Part shown: one piece after another, positions 3,421-31,669 of the stretch
How the letters are laid out: every line of letters starts with the position of its first letter
How positions within the stretch are numbered: the stretch's first letter is position 1
Source of the DNA: a virus
Virus record (IMG/VR): IMGVR_UViG_3300034375_000036
Coordinates: 1-31,778 of that record
DNA length: 31,778 nucleotides
Reading direction: 5' to 3' (one strand)
Program-made: the position numbers and the translations under genes
The notes under the pieces: model-generated
Told to the model about the DNA's origin: nothing
The model's input: only the letters and a program-made list of their open reading frames with translations
The model's database searches: none

Positions 3421-5318
3421 TATGTCTCCAATGCCGCGATACGGGCTTCTAATGCTATAATTGTTGCTTGCTGCTCTTGGATAGCCTTGATACACAGCGA
3501 CACCATATTGCTATATGCTAGTGCATCTGGCTCATCGTTATCGTTGTAGGTAACAAACTCTGTGAGGCCAGCATCGTGAACTTCTTCAGCAATTAAGCCA
3601 CCAAATACTGTGTCGCCATCGTTGTTGCCTTTGTAGGTGACTGGACGCAGTGCAAGTAACTCTGTTAAACCGTGTGTCGCATCTTCTATTGAATTTTTAT
3701 AACGTCTAGATGACGTAGACCTTTGTAGCGTCCCTGCCGAACTGACAAATACATTTGCTCCACTGCCTGTTGTTAGGTTGTATACTCCCGGAACTACAAG
3801 ATAACCATTACTACTTGTTATTTTTAAACGAGTTGTTCCGCTGATACCTGTTTCACGTATTGTAAATGCGCCATTATCTACGCCTTGGTCGCCTACTTGA
3901 AGTGTAAAAGTAGCACCACCACCAGCCGTGTTTGTTAGTGCAATACCATATCCAGAGGAATTGTTCGTTCCATCAGTATCAATATTTAGTCTTGCTCTTG
4001 TTGTTGTAGTTGTAGAAATGCCCACGTTGCCACTGTTGTCGATGCGCATACGTTCTGATTGAGAACCTGCATTTGACGTAGAGAATGTTAAATAACTTGA
4101 GTTATTTGCACCAGACGTTCCGCTAAGTATTTTAGACAAGGTTGAGTCAACATTGTTCCCAAAGTGAATTGCGCCAAGATTGTCGGTGGTATTGTTATTG
4201 TTGACTTGCAAATACAGTTCTGCGCCATTGGAGTTGGTGTCTCCAGTGATGTCCACAGAACCTGCCACTGAAACCAAACCATCATCTCTCACAGAAAACT
4301 TAGGTGAAAGACTGGAGTTATAACAAACAAGAATTGACGAACCGCTACCATCTGTTGCACCAGCCACGGTCAGTGCGCGTGTGCTAGCTATCGCGTCAAC
4401 TCCAATAGACGCATGACCTGTGATAGCTGTATCGCCAGTGACATCCACGCCTGTGGCGGTGGTGGCAAGTTTGGCTGACCCATCATAATAAATATTTACT
4501 GCGCCATCTGTGTTGGCGAGTATCATATTTTCACCGTCGTCCTTTTGTATTCGGACAGCAGTGCCGTTCGACATAATTTTTAATTCGCCACCGCCATTAT
4601 CATAAATGCGACTATGGCTACCATCGTGATAAATCTGCAAGTCAGACCCAGCACCGAAGATGGCCTTGTCGTTGTCAGCAAATGTAGCATTGCCAGTTAC
4701 AGCAACGCCTGTGGCGGTGGTGGCGAGTTTGGCTACGTTGTTGTGGTAAAGCGTGACTGCACCATCAGCCGCCCCCAACATCACGCTTTCAGTGCCAGCA
4801 GCATTTTTTACACTCAACGCATCTGTTTGAATAAACAAAGTGCCTGTGTCGTTATCAAGAAAAGCGTTGTTGCCGTTATGAAATAGCGACATATCACTGT
4901 CAGCACCAAACACGGCCTTGTCGCTGTCGCCAAAGTTGATGTCGCCAGTTGTGGTCAGGCCAGTAACAGTTGTTGCGCCTGTAAATGCAGTTGTACCAGT
5001 GACACTTAAATTACCACCCACACTAAAGTCACTATTTACATTACCACTAAACACACTGAAGACATCATACACGACAATCTCAACTACATCAGATGCAGTC
5101 AGTGCAGACAAGCCAGCAATGGTATTCGCTGTACTTGTGTTGTAGTCCGTACCAGCTACTAGGGTCACACCATTCAAGTTAACGTCAACATAGTTGCCAT
5201 CAGTGAATGTCAGGGTGCCACCTGTCAGCGCACCGCTGATTGATGTCTCACCGCCTGATGCAGTGAAGTAGTACCGATTACGTACACCCTGTGATGGTGA
5301 TTTTCCTAAGTATGCCAT
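3420..5318 (-). CDS. Tail fibre/spike with C-terminal S74 intramolecular chaperone (fibre 3)
   Basis: 632 residues, ATG with a GGAGAA site. The N-terminus (MAYLGKSPSQGVRNRYYF) is a probable virion-attachment domain. The shaft carries repeated beta units of the kind ATTATGVAVTG and D-KAIFGAGSDL-IYHDG, and later RMRIDNSGNVGI. The C-terminal 97 residues match the Peptidase S74 endosialidase-type chaperone, which trimerises the fibre and then cuts itself off. The Ser and Lys of the S-x-x-x-x-K signature are S536 and K541 (SSRRYKNSI). The usual Asp after the Ser is replaced by Ser here. A terminal leucine-zipper-like helix ends the protein. It should act in host recognition, being one of three long fibres in this cluster. 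Confidence 0.88.
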   Translation of the reverse strand: MAYLGKSPSQGVRNRYYFTASGGETSISGALTGGTLTFTDGNYVDVNLNGVTLVAGTDYNTSTANTIAGLSALTASDVVEIVVYDVFSVFSGNVNSDFSVGGNLSVTGTTAFTGATTVTGLTTTGDINFGDSDKAVFGADSDMSLFHNGNNAFLDNDTGTLFIQTDALSVKNAAGTESVMLGAADGAVTLYHNNVAKLATTATGVAVTGNATFADNDKAIFGAGSDLQIYHDGSHSRIYDNGGGELKIMSNGTAVRIQKDDGENMILANTDGAVNIYYDGSAKLATTATGVDVTGDTAITGHASIGVDAIASTRALTVAGATDGSGSSILVCYNSSLSPKFSVRDDGLVSVAGSVDITGDTNSNGAELYLQVNNNNTTDNLGAIHFGNNVDSTLSKILSGTSGANNSSYLTFSTSNAGSQSERMRIDNSGNVGISTTTTTRARLNIDTDGTNNSSGYGIALTNTAGGGATFTLQVGDQGVDNGAFTIRETGISGTTRLKITSSNGYLVVPGVYNLTTGSGANVFVSSAGTLQRSTSSRRYKNSIEDATHGLTELLALRPVTYKGNNDGDTVFGGLIAEEVHDAGLTEFVTYNDNDEPDALAYSNMVSLCIKAIQEQQATIIALEARIAALET

Positions 5319-24618: not shown

Positions 24619-25008
24619 TTAGGACTTCCCTTTACCAAACAACCTAGTAGCACTGCGTACACCAAAGCTGGCAGCAACAATAACACCAAGGCTATACTGA
24701 TACCACTCAGGCATTGCGTTGAGTTGTTCAAATCCGTTTGCAACTACTTCTTCCATCCCCGGAATAAACGCCATAACGAGAGGAATAGAGAACAAAACGG
24801 TAAGCCACTCATCTTTCCACGAAGACTGACTTCCTTTAGCCATCTCCAAATCCCAGTCAAGTTCGCCTGTAGCTTTCTTTTCCATGATTGTAGCTTCAGC
24901 TTTAGCCCGTGCAACTTTTGCACCAGTTTCTGCTTTAGTCTTTTCAACTTTTCCATCTAACCAAGTTCCTGCTAGTTGTGTAATTGGACCAATTAATAAA
25001 TTTAACAT
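24619..25008 (-). CDS. Holin of the 3-TM (gene-transfer-agent) type
   Basis: 129 residues, ATG with GGAGAGG upstream, overlapping the preceding stop (TAATG). An N-terminal amphipathic or membrane segment (LLIGPITQLAGTWL) is followed by a charged helix, then WKDEWLT (64-70) and two hydrophobic segments at about 69-85 and 103-120. This matches the family described as holin of 3TMs for gene-transfer release (established family, assigned by pattern). Together with the lysozyme two genes on it should open the inner membrane at lysis. Confidence 0.78.
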   Translation of the reverse strand: MLNLLIGPITQLAGTWLDGKVEKTKAETGAKVARAKAEATIMEKKATGELDWDLEMAKGSQSSWKDEWLTVLFSIPLVMAFIPGMEEVVANGFEQLNAMPEWYQYSLGVIVAASFGVRSATRLFGKGKS

Positions 25009-25247
25009 TAACCTCTCCGAAACTTTGCTGTTTTCTTTGCAATGCTTTTAGGTTGCTTTACAAATTGTTTACCCGCAGCTTTACCTTTTCTCTTGGCCTT
25101 AGTTGTAGCAGCATATTCGCTACTTGTCAAGGATTTAATTGCTGCAGCAGGTAAATAACGCTCTCCTGTCTTAGCAGAAGGCTTACCTGATTTAGTGCGC
25201 CAATCTTGTTTAGTCCAGTTAGCTAGGCTCTTCTGTGACTTTTTCAT
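25008..25247 (-). CDS. Small basic conserved phage protein (DUF5872-like)
   Basis: 79 residues, very basic. The blocks LANWTKQDWRTKSGKPS, then TGERYLPAAAIKSLTSSEYA and GKQFVKQPKSIAKKTAKFR belong to a small protein type frequent in marine phages; I believe the family is DUF5872, from memory. It has a Trp-containing helix pair and a Lys/Arg tail suited to binding nucleic acid. The function is unknown. It is one of several basic proteins in this cassette. Confidence 0.7.
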   Translation of the reverse strand: MKKSQKSLANWTKQDWRTKSGKPSAKTGERYLPAAAIKSLTSSEYAATTKAKRKGKAAGKQFVKQPKSIAKKTAKFRRG

Positions 25248-26173: not shown

Positions 26174-26422
26174 TTATTTGTAGCCGCCACCTGCTGACTT
26201 GTAAGCCTTGGCAAGCATCTGGGCTTTACGTGCTGACCACTGACCGGGTGCGCCACCTTTACCGCCAGCTTTGATACGGCTAAACTGTTGCTTCCTCATT
26301 CCGGGCTTAGTATAGTTGCCAGCTTCATTAACTCTCCTCTTGCTTTTCGGCGCACCGCCTTGCGAAAGGCTAACCCTTCTAGCTGGTTTCTTTTTCGCTT
26401 TTGTTTTTGCTGTCTTCGCCAT
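26174..26422 (-). CDS. Small, very basic conserved phage protein
   Basis: 82 residues. The N-terminal 20 are mostly Lys, Ala, Thr and Arg; then RRVNEAGNYTKPGMRKQQF, KAGGKGGAPGQWSARKAQML and GGGYK. The C-terminal block (PGQWSARKAQ-LA--Y---GGGY) is one I have met in small proteins of cyanophages and other marine phages. It may be a DNA-associated or virion-internal protein. The ATG at 26,422 has only a weak ribosome site, and the start lies inside another possible reading frame (26,296-26,472), so coupling is possible. Confidence 0.72.
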   Translation of the reverse strand: MAKTAKTKAKKKPARRVSLSQGGAPKSKRRVNEAGNYTKPGMRKQQFSRIKAGGKGGAPGQWSARKAQMLAKAYKSAGGGYK

Positions 26423-26484: not shown

Positions 26485-26835
26485 CTATCTACTTTTCCAA
26501 TATCCTTCGCCATAATCGTGCAGTATTTCTTCGTCTTGCTTTATATCTGTTAAAGCAAAAAACTTAACAAAACGGTCATCTGATTCACAGGCTTCCCATT
26601 CTGCATTTGGAGCATCACTGTGGTTGTAGACCATGCCTAATCCTAACACAACCATGAAGTCAGTGTCACCTTCATATGGAGAGTAGAACATATAGTTATG
26701 AAGAATACACTCATCACCTACGTCATTTTCAGTGACAAACAAATAAGGACATAACTCAATCGTATCGCCTTGAGCATAATCCCTATCTGCAAAAACACCA
26801 TGACCATGTATCTCAGAATCTTTTACATAGGGCAT
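26485..26835 (-). CDS. SET-domain protein lysine methyltransferase (compact, vSET-like)
   Basis: 116 residues, nearly all SET domain. Seen: IHGHGVFADRDYAQGDTIE (9-27) matches the N-terminal G-x-G SAM-binding strand; YNHSDAPNAEW (70-80) matches the NHS-x-x-PN motif of SAM and substrate binding; EEILHDYGEGYW (102-113) matches the C-terminal GEE-x-x-x-DYG motif carrying the catalytic Tyr (Y108). The protein should transfer methyl groups from S-adenosylmethionine to lysine. There are no pre-SET or post-SET zinc clusters, and the size is close to the 119-residue PBCV-1 vSET. It lies among Lys-rich phage proteins, which are the nearest candidate substrates. Host ribosomal or nucleoid proteins are alternatives. 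The family call is firm; the substrate is inference. Confidence 0.88.
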   Translation of the reverse strand: MPYVKDSEIHGHGVFADRDYAQGDTIELCPYLFVTENDVGDECILHNYMFYSPYEGDTDFMVVLGLGMVYNHSDAPNAEWEACESDDRFVKFFALTDIKQDEEILHDYGEGYWKSR

Positions 26836-26844
26836 TATTTTTTC

Positions 26845-27204
26845 TTATCTATTAGGGTCATAAAATTCTTCACAGGCTGTAGTTACAACTAGCTTACTAG
26901 CCGTACCTGCGGTGCATTTAATAATATCACCTGCATGTAGATACAAAGGTCTGTCTACACTAAAGATAGACTCGTATGAACCACCCGCAATATTATGGGC
27001 AGTCAACAAGTCATACTCTGCATTATCATCTGCATGAAAAAGATGTAGGCTCAAAGTCACGTTACCCGTGTGATTATTACTTACAAACAAGTTCTCTAAA
27101 TGAGAAGAAAAGTTTGCAGGTACGGTGTACACATTAGTCTTGTTAGTATTACCCAACGCAACTACTTCTGTACGAAACTTTGAGCCTGTTCCTAGTATTG
27201 GCAT
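26845..27204 (-). CDS. Small beta-rich virion protein, relative of the 109-aa adhesin-module protein
   Basis: 119 residues, ATG two bases after the stop of the 46-aa gene. Beta-sandwich-like: YTVPANFSSHLENLFVSNNH, then VTLSLHLFHADD, GGSYESIFSVDRPLYLHAGD and KLVVTTACEEF. The plan matches the product at 9,635-9,964 strand for strand (a II or L-NLFVSN-like strand, a D-rich turn, P(I/L)-GSS or GGSYES, and a V-TS or VTTACE end), so both may share a fold and origin. It is presumably a head or tail surface component. No active site is visible. Confidence 0.68.
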   Translation of the reverse strand: MPILGTGSKFRTEVVALGNTNKTNVYTVPANFSSHLENLFVSNNHTGNVTLSLHLFHADDNAEYDLLTAHNIAGGSYESIFSVDRPLYLHAGDIIKCTAGTASKLVVTTACEEFYDPNR

Positions 27205-27206
27205 TG

Positions 27207-27347
27207 CTACTTCTTCTTAGCCATGCCGCCACGCATCATCTTTTTCTTAGACATCTTAGCCATGCCGCCGCCCATCATTTTCTTTTTAGCCATGCCGCCA
27301 CGCATCATTTTCTTCTTCTTAGCCATTTTAGCTTTACCCATTGCCAT
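27207..27347 (-). CDS. 46-residue Met/Lys/Gly repeat peptide
   Basis: ATG 27,347 to TAG 27,207, beginning MAMGKAKMAKKKKMMRGGMA. The peptide consists of four imperfect copies of a unit K-K-K-M-M-(R/G)-G-G-M-A, contains no aromatic residue and has a strong positive charge. The start overlaps the end of the preceding gene by 14 bases, and the next gene's ATG follows its stop after two bases, so it lies squarely in the operon. The KKT-AMMRGGMSGG block of the 104-aa protein at 28,120-28,434 is the same motif. The function is unknown; a DNA-condensing or capsid-packed peptide, or a substrate of the nearby SET enzyme, are guesses. Confidence 0.65.
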   Translation of the reverse strand: MAMGKAKMAKKKKMMRGGMAKKKMMGGGMAKMSKKKMMRGGMAKKK

Positions 27348-27864
27348 CACGCAATCTCCTTCTTTCCACCACTAGGGTTTCATAAATGTCATCTGGAAAA
27401 TGTTCGTAGTAATTAGATTTTTCCAGATACAAAGCTGCATCGTCTAGTTTAGAAAGTTTCTGCACAAAGACCATACAGTACGATAAGCTGTTATCTGTAA
27501 CTCCATCATCTACGAGGAAGTCTAGTCCAGCTTCTGCTGCGTCATAGTCAGGGTGAAACACCATTAGGTGTAAATCAATACCAGCTATAGACATCAACTC
27601 ATTCATGCCATCACATAGACCATCAAGGTAATCCATGTCCGGCAAATCTTCATTAGCCCATACTACAATATCATATTCGTGGCTATCGAACTTACGGATA
27701 GCTTGTAGCAGTCCGTCTATACCTGTGTTTATACTAAAGACTACTTTATCATCAGCCCATGCTTTACGGGCGTATGGACAAGGTGGCAATCCATTTAGCT
27801 TTGCATTGGGTACTTCAAGAAAGTCTTTTGACCAAGTGCGTATATCTTGTTCAACTCTATGCAC
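27334..27864 (-). CDS. Conserved-looking phage protein of unknown function
   Basis: 176 residues if started at GTG 27,864, which overlaps the upstream stop by 8 bases; an upstream in-frame ATG at 27,966 would overlap the 87-aa gene by 110 bases and is less likely. The N-terminal part VHRVEQDIRTWSKDFLEV is followed by LNGLPPCPYARKAWADDKVV, a pattern (dWs...L..CP-AR.AW) reminiscent of the DUF1415 family; then the DYDAAEAGLDF and SNYYEHFPDDIYETL segments. The C-terminus is acidic to basic. I cannot assign a reaction; it is a soluble protein. Confidence 0.65.
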   Translation of the reverse strand: MHRVEQDIRTWSKDFLEVPNAKLNGLPPCPYARKAWADDKVVFSINTGIDGLLQAIRKFDSHEYDIVVWANEDLPDMDYLDGLCDGMNELMSIAGIDLHLMVFHPDYDAAEAGLDFLVDDGVTDNSLSYCMVFVQKLSKLDDAALYLEKSNYYEHFPDDIYETLVVERRRLRDGNG

Positions 27865-28120
27865 GTCTGTTCCGTTTACCAGCCGTAGCAGTACGTGGAA
27901 AAGACCTATTCTGTGAAGCCCTTTGCAGAGTAAGATTGCCCCTACGATTGTCACGAGGATTGCCATTCTTGTGTGCTATATCCTTACCAGCCGTATTTAC
28001 GCCAGACTTCTTGACTATTTTACGTGCAGCATTACGCCCAGCACGATTAGCCTTTTGTACAGGCTTAGAGTGGTAGTTAGCATACTCTTTCTTGTAGTTA
28101 CGTTTTTTAGTGGGAGCCAT
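27857..28120 (-). CDS. Small basic protein with HNH-like motif
   Basis: 87 residues, ATG overlapping the previous stop (TAATG), with AGGTAA upstream. Strongly basic N-terminal helix (KKRNYKKEYANYHSKP...NRAGRNAARKIVKKSG) followed by DIAHKNGNPRDNRRGNL (47-63), the HKDGNP-x-DNR-x-NL pattern typical of HNH and HNH-like proteins. It lacks the other conserved histidines and metal-binding cysteines of an active HNH nuclease as far as I can see, so a DNA-binding or structural role is more likely than cutting. Confidence 0.7.
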   Translation of the reverse strand: MAPTKKRNYKKEYANYHSKPVQKANRAGRNAARKIVKKSGVNTAGKDIAHKNGNPRDNRRGNLTLQRASQNRSFPRTATAGKRNRRA

Positions 28121-28434
28121 TACTTACCTGTAATTTTTTTATAGGCTTCTGGGCTTGCAGCTTTTAGTGCCTTCAGGCCGGGGTTATCTTTAACCATACC
28201 ACCTGCTGCATACATATGCTCTTTGCCGCCAGACATACCGCCACGCATCATAGCAGTTTTCTTCTTAGGGTTTTTCATTTTACCCATGCCAACACTAATA
28301 GCAATTACTGGTACATCTTTTTTCATGTCACCGCCCTTACTTAATTCACGTATCATCTTCTTAGCGTCTTTAACTTCTTGCACTGTATGTTCAGATTTAT
28401 TCTCAAGAATTGATCTAGCTTCTGTTACGGTCAT
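28120..28434 (-). CDS. Basic protein with KKT-AMMRGGM motif
   Basis: 104 residues, ATG overlapping the previous stop (ATGA). An acidic/basic helix (VTEARSILENKSEHTVQEVK) is followed by KKDVPVIAISVGMGKMKNPK, then KKTAMMRGGMSGGKEHMYAA and GGMVKDNPGLKALKAA. The central segment repeats the unit found in the 46-aa peptide, and the GGMV motif occurs in the 1040-aa and 828-aa virion proteins. It could be an internal head protein or a DNA-binding factor; no domain is identified. Confidence 0.62.
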   Translation of the reverse strand: MTVTEARSILENKSEHTVQEVKDAKKMIRELSKGGDMKKDVPVIAISVGMGKMKNPKKKTAMMRGGMSGGKEHMYAAGGMVKDNPGLKALKAASPEAYKKITGK

Positions 28435-29351: not shown

Positions 29352-29645
29352 TTACCATTTTACTTTATGAGACCAGTACTTCGCTGACAGCTTGCTGGTC
29401 GGCTTGCCCTGTGCATTGTGACGTGCATAGTAGGACTTCTTACGTGCTTTGTCTTTAGCAGACTTAGGATTCTTCCCAGCACCTGATACGCCCTGCTGTC
29501 CAAAGCGAATGAATTTATATGTGTCACCTTCTTTAGCCATGACACAGTGTGACTTAGTTTTATGATTAGGTGTACGTTTAGGAACATTAACTTTCGTTAA
29601 TCCTTCCTCTTTCATTTTAGTTTTTACTCTTTCAGGTATAGCCAT
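29352..29645 (-). CDS. Small basic conserved phage protein
   Basis: 97 residues, ATG one base after the preceding stop. The sequence begins MAIPERVKTKMKEEGLTKVN and continues with CVMAKEGDTYKFIRFGQQG, GKNPKSAKDKARKKSYYARH and LSAKYWSHKVKW. The GKNPKSAKDKARKKSYYARH segment is a small-protein block I associate with marine phages. Basic, one cysteine, no signal peptide. Function unknown. Confidence 0.68.
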   Translation of the reverse strand: MAIPERVKTKMKEEGLTKVNVPKRTPNHKTKSHCVMAKEGDTYKFIRFGQQGVSGAGKNPKSAKDKARKKSYYARHNAQGKPTSKLSAKYWSHKVKW

Positions 29646-30115: not shown

Positions 30116-30131
30116 TTAAGTGTACACTTAA
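30116..30131. promoter_or_regulatory. 16-bp perfect palindrome, operator-like (site 2)
   Basis: TTAAGTGTACACTTAA, symmetric over all 16 bases, about 60 bp upstream of the first late gene. It has the same half-site (TTAAGTGT) as site 1. Confidence 0.7.
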
Positions 30132-30203
30132 GTGTATTAACAAAGAAACTTTAGGCCAGTTAAATGTTATATCTAAGTGTTTTTATAATTTAACTAAGGA
30201 CAG

Positions 30204-30220
30204 TTAAGTGTAACACTTAA
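30204..30220. promoter_or_regulatory. 17-bp palindrome, operator-like (site 1)
   Basis: TTAAGTGT-A-ACACTTAA lies just downstream of the late promoter, roughly +14 to +30 from the expected start. A repressor bound here would block the promoter or early elongation. Confidence 0.75.
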
Positions 30221-30240
30221 GTGATTCTAGTTATAGTGTA

Positions 30241-30269
30241 ATTATACTCAATTTTAGCATGTTTGTCAA
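30241..30269 (-). promoter_or_regulatory. Consensus sigma70-type promoter of the leftward late operon
   Basis: Minus strand: TTGACA (30,269-30,264), 17-base spacer, TATAAT (30,246-30,241), both hexamers perfect. It is the only strong promoter seen upstream of the 30,056 start. A TATAGTGT motif lies at the expected start site (30,232-30,239). Confidence 0.85.
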
Positions 30270-30291
30270 TAGCACTTTTTATACATATACG
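30263..30291 (+). promoter_or_regulatory. Possible rightward promoter
   Basis: TTGTCA (30,263-30,268), 17-base spacer, TATACG (30,286-30,291). It overlaps the -35 of the leftward promoter face to face, so the two would compete. Match to consensus is moderate, and the first rightward gene is over 500 bp away. Confidence 0.35.
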
Positions 30292-31051: not shown

Positions 31052-31669
31052 ATGGAAAAAGTTTACACGCAAGTTTCACACAAAATCGCTGTCAAAAACA
31101 TTAAGGCAATGTTTAAAGCATCGTCTCAAACACAAATTGACGCTGGCATGGCATGGTATCAAAACGCGCAAGATCAGGCGCAAGCGATAGCCATAAAGCA
31201 CGACATGCCGGTTTATATCGTTGTTGCTGTTATTGCCGCATTGTCGCCTAATAATAAATGGGCGCGTAACTTGCAAAATGCCGATGATCTTATCGCCGGT
31301 TTTATTGCCGGTGATGCAATTGAAACAATCAAAGTTTCCACATATCACAAGATGAAAGCGAAAGCATGGGCAATTCTGCAAGATATCCCCGATTATGACA
31401 TGGCAAAAACCATGCTAAACGGTCAAAAAATTACGTCATTTTTCATGGATATTATGGGCGAGTTTAATGTCACGATAGACGGACATGCGCGTAATATCGC
31501 TTATAATGAAAGAGTAGGATTAACAGACGATCGCACAAATATAGGCGTTAGAGAATATCGCGCATTGCAAGAGGCCTACTATGAAGCGGCGCGTGATCTT
31601 GATCTGATGCCATATCAATTACAGGCCATTACATGGACAACATGGCGCGAATTACACGGGATTGTATAG
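31052..31669 (+). CDS. Probable nucleic-acid enzyme, HhH glycosylase-like pattern (DUF7178-like)
   Basis: 205 residues, ATG with AAGGG upstream, 25 bases after the preceding gene. The protein is all-helical. Conserved-looking blocks: VVAVIAALSPNNKWARNLQN (57-76), LNGQKITSFFMDIMG (122-136), VTIDGHARNIAYNERVGL (140-157), and YQLQAITWTTWRELHG near the end. The G-x-K-x-x-x-F block followed by a V-x-x-D-x-H segment recalls the HhH-GPD DNA glycosylase arrangement, in which Lys and Asp are catalytic. I also associate the whole with a phage family, DUF7178 (name from memory). A base-excision or DNA-modification role is inference. Confidence 0.65.
   Translation: MEKVYTQVSHKIAVKNIKAMFKASSQTQIDAGMAWYQNAQDQAQAIAIKHDMPVYIVVAVIAALSPNNKWARNLQNADDLIAGFIAGDAIETIKVSTYHKMKAKAWAILQDIPDYDMAKTMLNGQKITSFFMDIMGEFNVTIDGHARNIAYNERVGLTDDRTNIGVREYRALQEAYYEAARDLDLMPYQLQAITWTTWRELHGIV

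Follow-up and report, generated by a model that had tools for sequence, protein, structure and literature searches.

The window analysed here, a stretch of 31,778 nucleotides of viral DNA, is a 31.8-kb fragment of a genome whose replication module falls outside it. Its TerL, portal and coat proteins are 94%, 90% and 77% identical to those of Puniceispirillum phage HMO-2011, and the core late genes of the two are collinear. The TerL identity together with the common gene order places the window among the HMO-2011-type podoviruses, a common group of ocean bacteriophages. On the minus strand it carries a block that runs from a consensus promoter through small genes and then lysozyme, terminase, portal, coat and tail genes, and that can reasonably be read as a late operon. 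The preliminary description, made from the letters alone, had located a phage-encoded SET gene in a late operon, and the gene is indeed there, among genes for lysis, packaging and virion structure. The features of the region are as follows.

25008-25247, minus strand: gp59-like Lys-rich protein, 92% identical to its counterpart in SET-less HMO-2011
26174-26422, minus strand: gp63-like Lys-rich protein, 83% identical to its counterpart in SET-less HMO-2011
26485-26835, minus strand: predicted SET-domain protein lysine methyltransferase (Pfam, vSET match in the PDB, AlphaFold2 model, dN/dS)
26512-26514, minus strand: Tyr108, predicted catalytic tyrosine (vSET Y105 in the alignment)
26620-26625, minus strand: Asn71-His72 of the NHS motif (vSET N69-H70 in the alignment)
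26692-26694, minus strand: Tyr48, predicted lysine-pocket tyrosine (vSET Y50), kept in every phage and host row
26797-26805, minus strand: G11-x-G13, predicted SAM-binding turn (aligned to vSET G15/G17)
26845-27204, minus strand: gp64-like 119-aa protein, between MKG and SET in the window lineage
27207-27347, minus strand: MKG, a 46-aa Lys/Met/Gly repeat protein of AKKKKMMRGGMAKKK units, candidate substrate by position and conservation
27334-27966, minus strand: gp66-like protein (phrog_28122), with which the conserved gp66-MKG-SET run opens
28120-28434, minus strand: gp67-like Lys-rich protein with one KKTAMMRGGM motif, 83% identical to HMO-2011 over the C-terminal half
29352-29645, minus strand: gp69-like Lys-rich protein (phrog_7595), 93% identical to its counterpart in SET-less HMO-2011
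30241-30269, minus strand: sigma-70-type consensus promoter TTGACA-17-TATAAT (12/12 match), upstream of the SET block

SET is a minus-strand reading frame of 116 codons that runs from 26835 to 26485; on the plus strand, the frame of this interval is interrupted by stop codons. Residues 11-109 of the 116-aa product match the Pfam family PF00856 over its full length (model positions 1-105 of 105, E=3.3e-13, 50.4 bits against a cut-off of 22.4), and no pre-SET, post-SET or other domain accompanies the match. The preliminary description credited the protein with all three SET core motifs, and GxG, NH and the catalytic Tyr are indeed present. In the putative SAM-binding turn G13 is invariant and G11 conserved to at least 90% (alignments of 60 and 69 rows). 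Asn71-His72 and Tyr108 are invariant in alignments of 20 and 60 relatives; the former pair is kept at 95% or more in the phage group and in the host group, and Tyr108 is also retained in host homologues. Tyr112, the equivalent of vSET Y109, is common to phage and host homologues. Tyr16 of vSET is not conserved, being His12 in the window and Leu in most relatives.

Among all PDB chains, phmmer ranks the vSET protein of PBCV-1 first (E=2.8e-12, co-linear up to the last residue), followed by S. pombe Set7 and a Plasmodium SET protein. The likeness to vSET (A612L, the chlorovirus H3K27 methyltransferase) extends to size, as had been remarked earlier (116 residues against a 119-aa chain), to the isolated SET domain lacking pre- and post-SET parts, to the collinear sequence and fold, and to the equivalents of Tyr50, Tyr105, Tyr109 and Asn69-His70. 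The two proteins differ in that their identity is only about 30%, Tyr16 is replaced by His or Leu in the phage SETs, and the phage proteins form a separate lineage in the tree; moreover, the window phage infects bacteria and hence has no histone H3 target. The window enzyme adds a phage member to the vSET-type SET proteins, a kind already known.

An AlphaFold2 model built from 69 phage and related sequences has a mean pLDDT of 87.4; a first model from 20 close relatives was poor (62.8), and the value rose once remote phage SETs were added. Foldseek places the same three proteins on top as the sequence search, with probability 1.00 to many SET structures, and the model has the SET beta-fold. 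The comparison with PBCV-1 vSET that had been proposed as a check gives TM scores of 0.78 (query) and 0.86 (target) to 3kma over 107 columns. The dN/dS ratio is 0.06-0.13 between the window and its relatives, with a family median of 0.14 in pairwise comparison, which indicates strong purifying selection on the gene. The window protein used alone as a query finds 62 IMG/VR loci with SET, and with two conserved patterns 140 contigs were later confirmed; encoding at this many loci argues decisively against a chance ORF. Sequence, fold model and selection make it almost certain that the gene specifies a real, selected SET enzyme, the activity being the one expected of the family: it would carry out SAM-dependent lysine methylation.

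SET enzymes had been called uncommon in phages, which holds for deposited genomes and fails for uncultured HMO-2011-type phages. A tblastn search of 50,697 GenBank phage records matches SET in two only, both from one 735-kb metagenomic huge phage (LR756501); no isolate of the HMO-2011 type with SET is among these records. Among the uncultured HMO-2011-type phages the gene is frequent, and its apparent scarcity reflects which phages were sequenced from culture. A separate search from the huge-phage protein adds another 34 proteins of vSET size (L233-L266), and many of their contigs are large. These large-phage proteins share with the window protein a vSET-size SET domain carried in a phage genome, but are only 27-40% identical to it, and a search for MKG-like neighbours of SET in these contigs and in LR756501 found none. 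The open-access literature that was searched contains no description of phage SET enzymes, although absence from such a sample is weak evidence.

A genome scan reveals a SET gene (122 aa, 57% identical) in an alphaproteobacterial metagenome-assembled genome (L114), on a chromosomal contig where genes for a membrane protein and an acyltransferase-like protein flank it. Of 136 genomes of the same order, 54 have chromosomal homologues, which are flanked by cellular genes and share 59-86% identity with the L114 protein. One of the 54 carriers, a single contig of 2,753,527 bp, we take to be Puniceispirillum marinum IMCC1322, and the order hence presumably is SAR116/Puniceispirillales. P. marinum IMCC1322 is the host of HMO-2011. 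In a maximum-likelihood tree all 77 phage SETs group as a single clade (SH-aLRT 99) that falls within the host rows (forks 86-94) and has a stem of 1.03 changes per column; with a short alignment and a distant outgroup, the exact branching point is uncertain. Because the phage clade nests inside the chromosomal SETs of the inferred host order, the phage gene probably derives from that order, and the simplest reading of the tree is one old host-to-phage transfer. Given its chromosomal homologues in the likely host order, the phage SET is not a purely viral invention.

The chromosomal SETs of this order are the nearest cellular relatives and resemble the phage proteins in size and core motifs; they differ in being solitary genes with changing neighbours and no MKG seen alongside, the phage clade standing apart on its long stem. 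Host copies lie in several unrelated gene contexts that differ between host subclades. We therefore rejected the gene neighbours as a guide to the target of the host SET, whose function is unreadable from such contexts. A search of the host genomes for an MKG-like protein, made with a low-complexity query and no positive control, found none.

The Lys-rich small neighbours of SET mentioned in the preliminary description are real, and its Met/Lys/Gly repeat is the 46-aa MKG ORF at 27207-27347. In the window MKG contains 16 Lys, 13 Met and 8 Gly residues and has a pI of 12; its 5' end overlaps the 3' end of the gp66-like gene. At every HMO-type SET locus with enough flank, the window lineage excepted, the gp66-like gene and MKG lie directly upstream of SET. 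The start codon of SET overlaps or abuts the stop of the approximately 50-aa MKG gene at 78 distinct loci, mostly as TAATG. The trio is intact in L027, L040 and L113, where the operons are rearranged and TerL is only about 55-65% identical. The window has the opposite arrangement (26485-27204) to that found elsewhere among the relatives examined, in which SET precedes the gp64-like gene; an independent contig from a 98% relative (L001) shares the junction, with the gp64-like gene directly before SET.

Of the 134 distinct gp66-like loci with enough flank to be scored, 133 have MKG after the gp66-like gene, 78 with SET adjoining and 55 without SET, counts that include many near relatives and so do not represent independent events. 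A substrate confined to genomes with the enzyme is not what we find, since MKG occurs at these 55 loci without SET; the reverse holds, and SET is never seen without MKG at HMO-type loci with enough flank. As far as gene order tells, SET is tied to MKG in position, but MKG is not tied to SET. In the SET-less phages other genes occupy the junction after MKG, namely gp65, a 249-aa family and a 74-aa family. HMO-2011 illustrates the SET-less state: it shares the gene order and MKG with the window, and differs in the absence of SET, in gp65 following MKG and in a methanesulfonate monooxygenase gene nearby. Its MKG, an intact 50-aa gene between gp66 and gp65 (4503-4655 of our HMO-2011 locus, L064), is missing from the annotation. 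In some phages (L004, L012, L014, L041, L058, L163, L300, L311 and L330) MKG is extended at its N-terminus by a domain of some 40-70 residues that differs between phages, so that the repeat may be a tail attachable to several domains.

The composition of the MKG repeat varies with the presence of SET. The lysine run is unbroken in SET-carrying phages (AKKKKMMRGGMAKKK units) and interrupted by Ser or Ala in their SET-less relatives (ASKKKMMRGGMAKKK units). Position X of the motif M-[AST]-X-[KR]2-3-M-GG is Lys in 169 and Arg in 6 of the 175 motifs from SET-carrying loci, against Ser in 42, Ala in 17, Gln in 1 and Lys in 1 at SET-less loci (Ser, Ala or Gln in 60/61). Counted by locus, 74/78 of the SET carriers have Lys or Arg and none has Ser or Ala only, the other 4 lacking a scorable motif; the SET-less loci have Ser, Ala or Gln only in 43/55 and Lys in 1, with 11 not scorable. 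The tree of the gp66-like protein requires four changes of the SET label (two of them forced by its starred branches), and the type of MKG follows SET each time. Four loci (L080, L083, L071 and L074) have gp66-like genes of SET-less kin, yet an MKG of the SET-carrying type, and in two others (L082 and L023) several downstream genes are closer to those of SET-less phages. From these mosaics, MKG and SET appear to travel together while their surroundings change. Such co-travel fits an enzyme and its substrate, and also fits two adjoining genes exchanged together in a single recombining segment. The related motif of the gp67-like protein, which is encoded 1-1.5 kb away, served as an unlinked comparison and displays no difference in its lysine run with respect to SET, with few cases to compare.

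We tentatively propose that an HMO-2011-type lineage acquired a vSET-sized SET gene from a SAR116-type host, and that the acquired gene landed directly after MKG, in the block of lysis, packaging and virion genes. The enzyme would use SAM to methylate lysines; the most likely acceptors would be the lysine runs (AKKKKMMRGG) of MKG, a very small basic protein encoded in the same operon, and methylation would tune the binding of this protamine-like protein to DNA or virion parts. The chain as a whole, from host-acquired SET to methylated MKG, we consider somewhat short of an even chance. MKG is the best candidate substrate because SET adjoins it and its lysine run is unbroken in the SET carriers but interrupted in their SET-less relatives; judged from this linkage, its chance of being the main target ranges from somewhat to appreciably below even. 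In the window itself SET lies one gene away from MKG, and the search of the host genomes, limited as described, showed no MKG-like partner for the host homologue; both points count against the assignment. The occurrence of MKG at SET-less loci implies that its basic function needs no methylation, and the association with the lysine run could be explained by plain linkage of SET and MKG alone. A stronger version, in which SET and a protamine-like MKG make up a chromatin-like system of the phage, move as a cassette and have lysine runs adapted to the enzyme, seems to us unlikely.

The main competing explanation is that the phage SET, as an auxiliary gene, retains the role of the host enzyme: it methylates a host protein, for example one of translation or the nucleoid, and thereby reinforces or alters a host modification, with the adjacency to MKG reflecting an insertion slot. 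The junction after MKG may indeed be a mere slot of this kind, since the gp65, 249-aa and 74-aa families also occupy it. The clear kinship with a chromosomal host gene, the core residues common to phage and host enzymes, the persistence of MKG without SET and the presence of other accessory genes in the same operon stretch, above all the methanesulfonate-monooxygenase-like gene of HMO-2011, all speak for a host target. However, the long stem between phage and host SETs suggests a changed specificity, the position of SET is constant outside the window lineage, the lysine run of MKG varies together with SET, and the unrelated contexts of the host genes hide any target from view. We regard a host target as possible, though on the doubtful side.

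Returning to targets within the phage, SET could instead methylate other phage proteins (gp63-, gp59-, gp67- or gp69-like, or structural ones) for virion stability or DNA packing. These four are Lys-rich and share the block with SET, and the preliminary description had paired the enzyme with its Lys-rich neighbours at large. As dedicated substrates the neighbours in general were rejected: HMO-2011, which lacks SET, retains the gp63-, gp59- and gp69-like proteins at 83-93% identity, so none of these needs the enzyme, and the pairing survives for MKG only, through its adjacency and the difference in its repeat. In addition, no gp63 was found in the SET carriers with rearranged operons (L027, L040 and L113), and the gp67-like motif, also present in relatives, shows no covariation with SET; a target of this kind is improbable. 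A SET fold that has decayed or lost catalysis, and that is either retained for binding or there by chance, would accord with an activity known by family only and with the replacement of vSET Tyr16 (His12 in the window), but is very hard to reconcile with a dN/dS near 0.1 and with catalytic tyrosine, NH and SAM motifs invariant across diverged phages and hosts.

If the reading of a host-derived, selected lysine methyltransferase in many such phages is true, protein methylation would take part in their infection cycle, for which the literature searched yielded no describing paper. Because the host has a homologous gene, MKG is a candidate and matched phages with and without SET occur naturally, the question of the target is directly testable. 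Methylation of MKG, if shown, would raise the novelty beyond that of the vSET-type enzyme itself.

Several further observations concern the surroundings of the block. No RNA families were found in the window. Relatives of the methanesulfonate monooxygenase of HMO-2011 (Rieske type; 73-81% identical in SET-carrying loci) occur in phages with and without SET (L079, L082, L086, L269, L270 and others), and mutual exclusion of the two genes was rejected (15/67 versus 14/49, Fisher p=0.52). Short motifs resembling scattered MKG units (AKGGMV, MQTGG, KKKMKKGGLASKK and MMRGGM) recur in otherwise unrelated phage proteins (90-3212, 16755-19253 and 28120-28434, minus strand) and possibly represent a shared virion or DNA-binding tag. 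On the plus strand, past the promoter that serves the block, lies a gene for a DUF7178 protein (31052-31669, Pfam E=6e-42). The gp71-like gene of HMO-2011 and of many relatives is likewise preceded by the exact consensus promoter. In the stretch that separates this promoter from the first gene of the block, both the window (30120-30270, minus strand) and HMO-2011 (L064 1887-2120) contain the palindrome CACTTAAGTG in several copies, along with half-sites, and these look like operators for a phage regulator.
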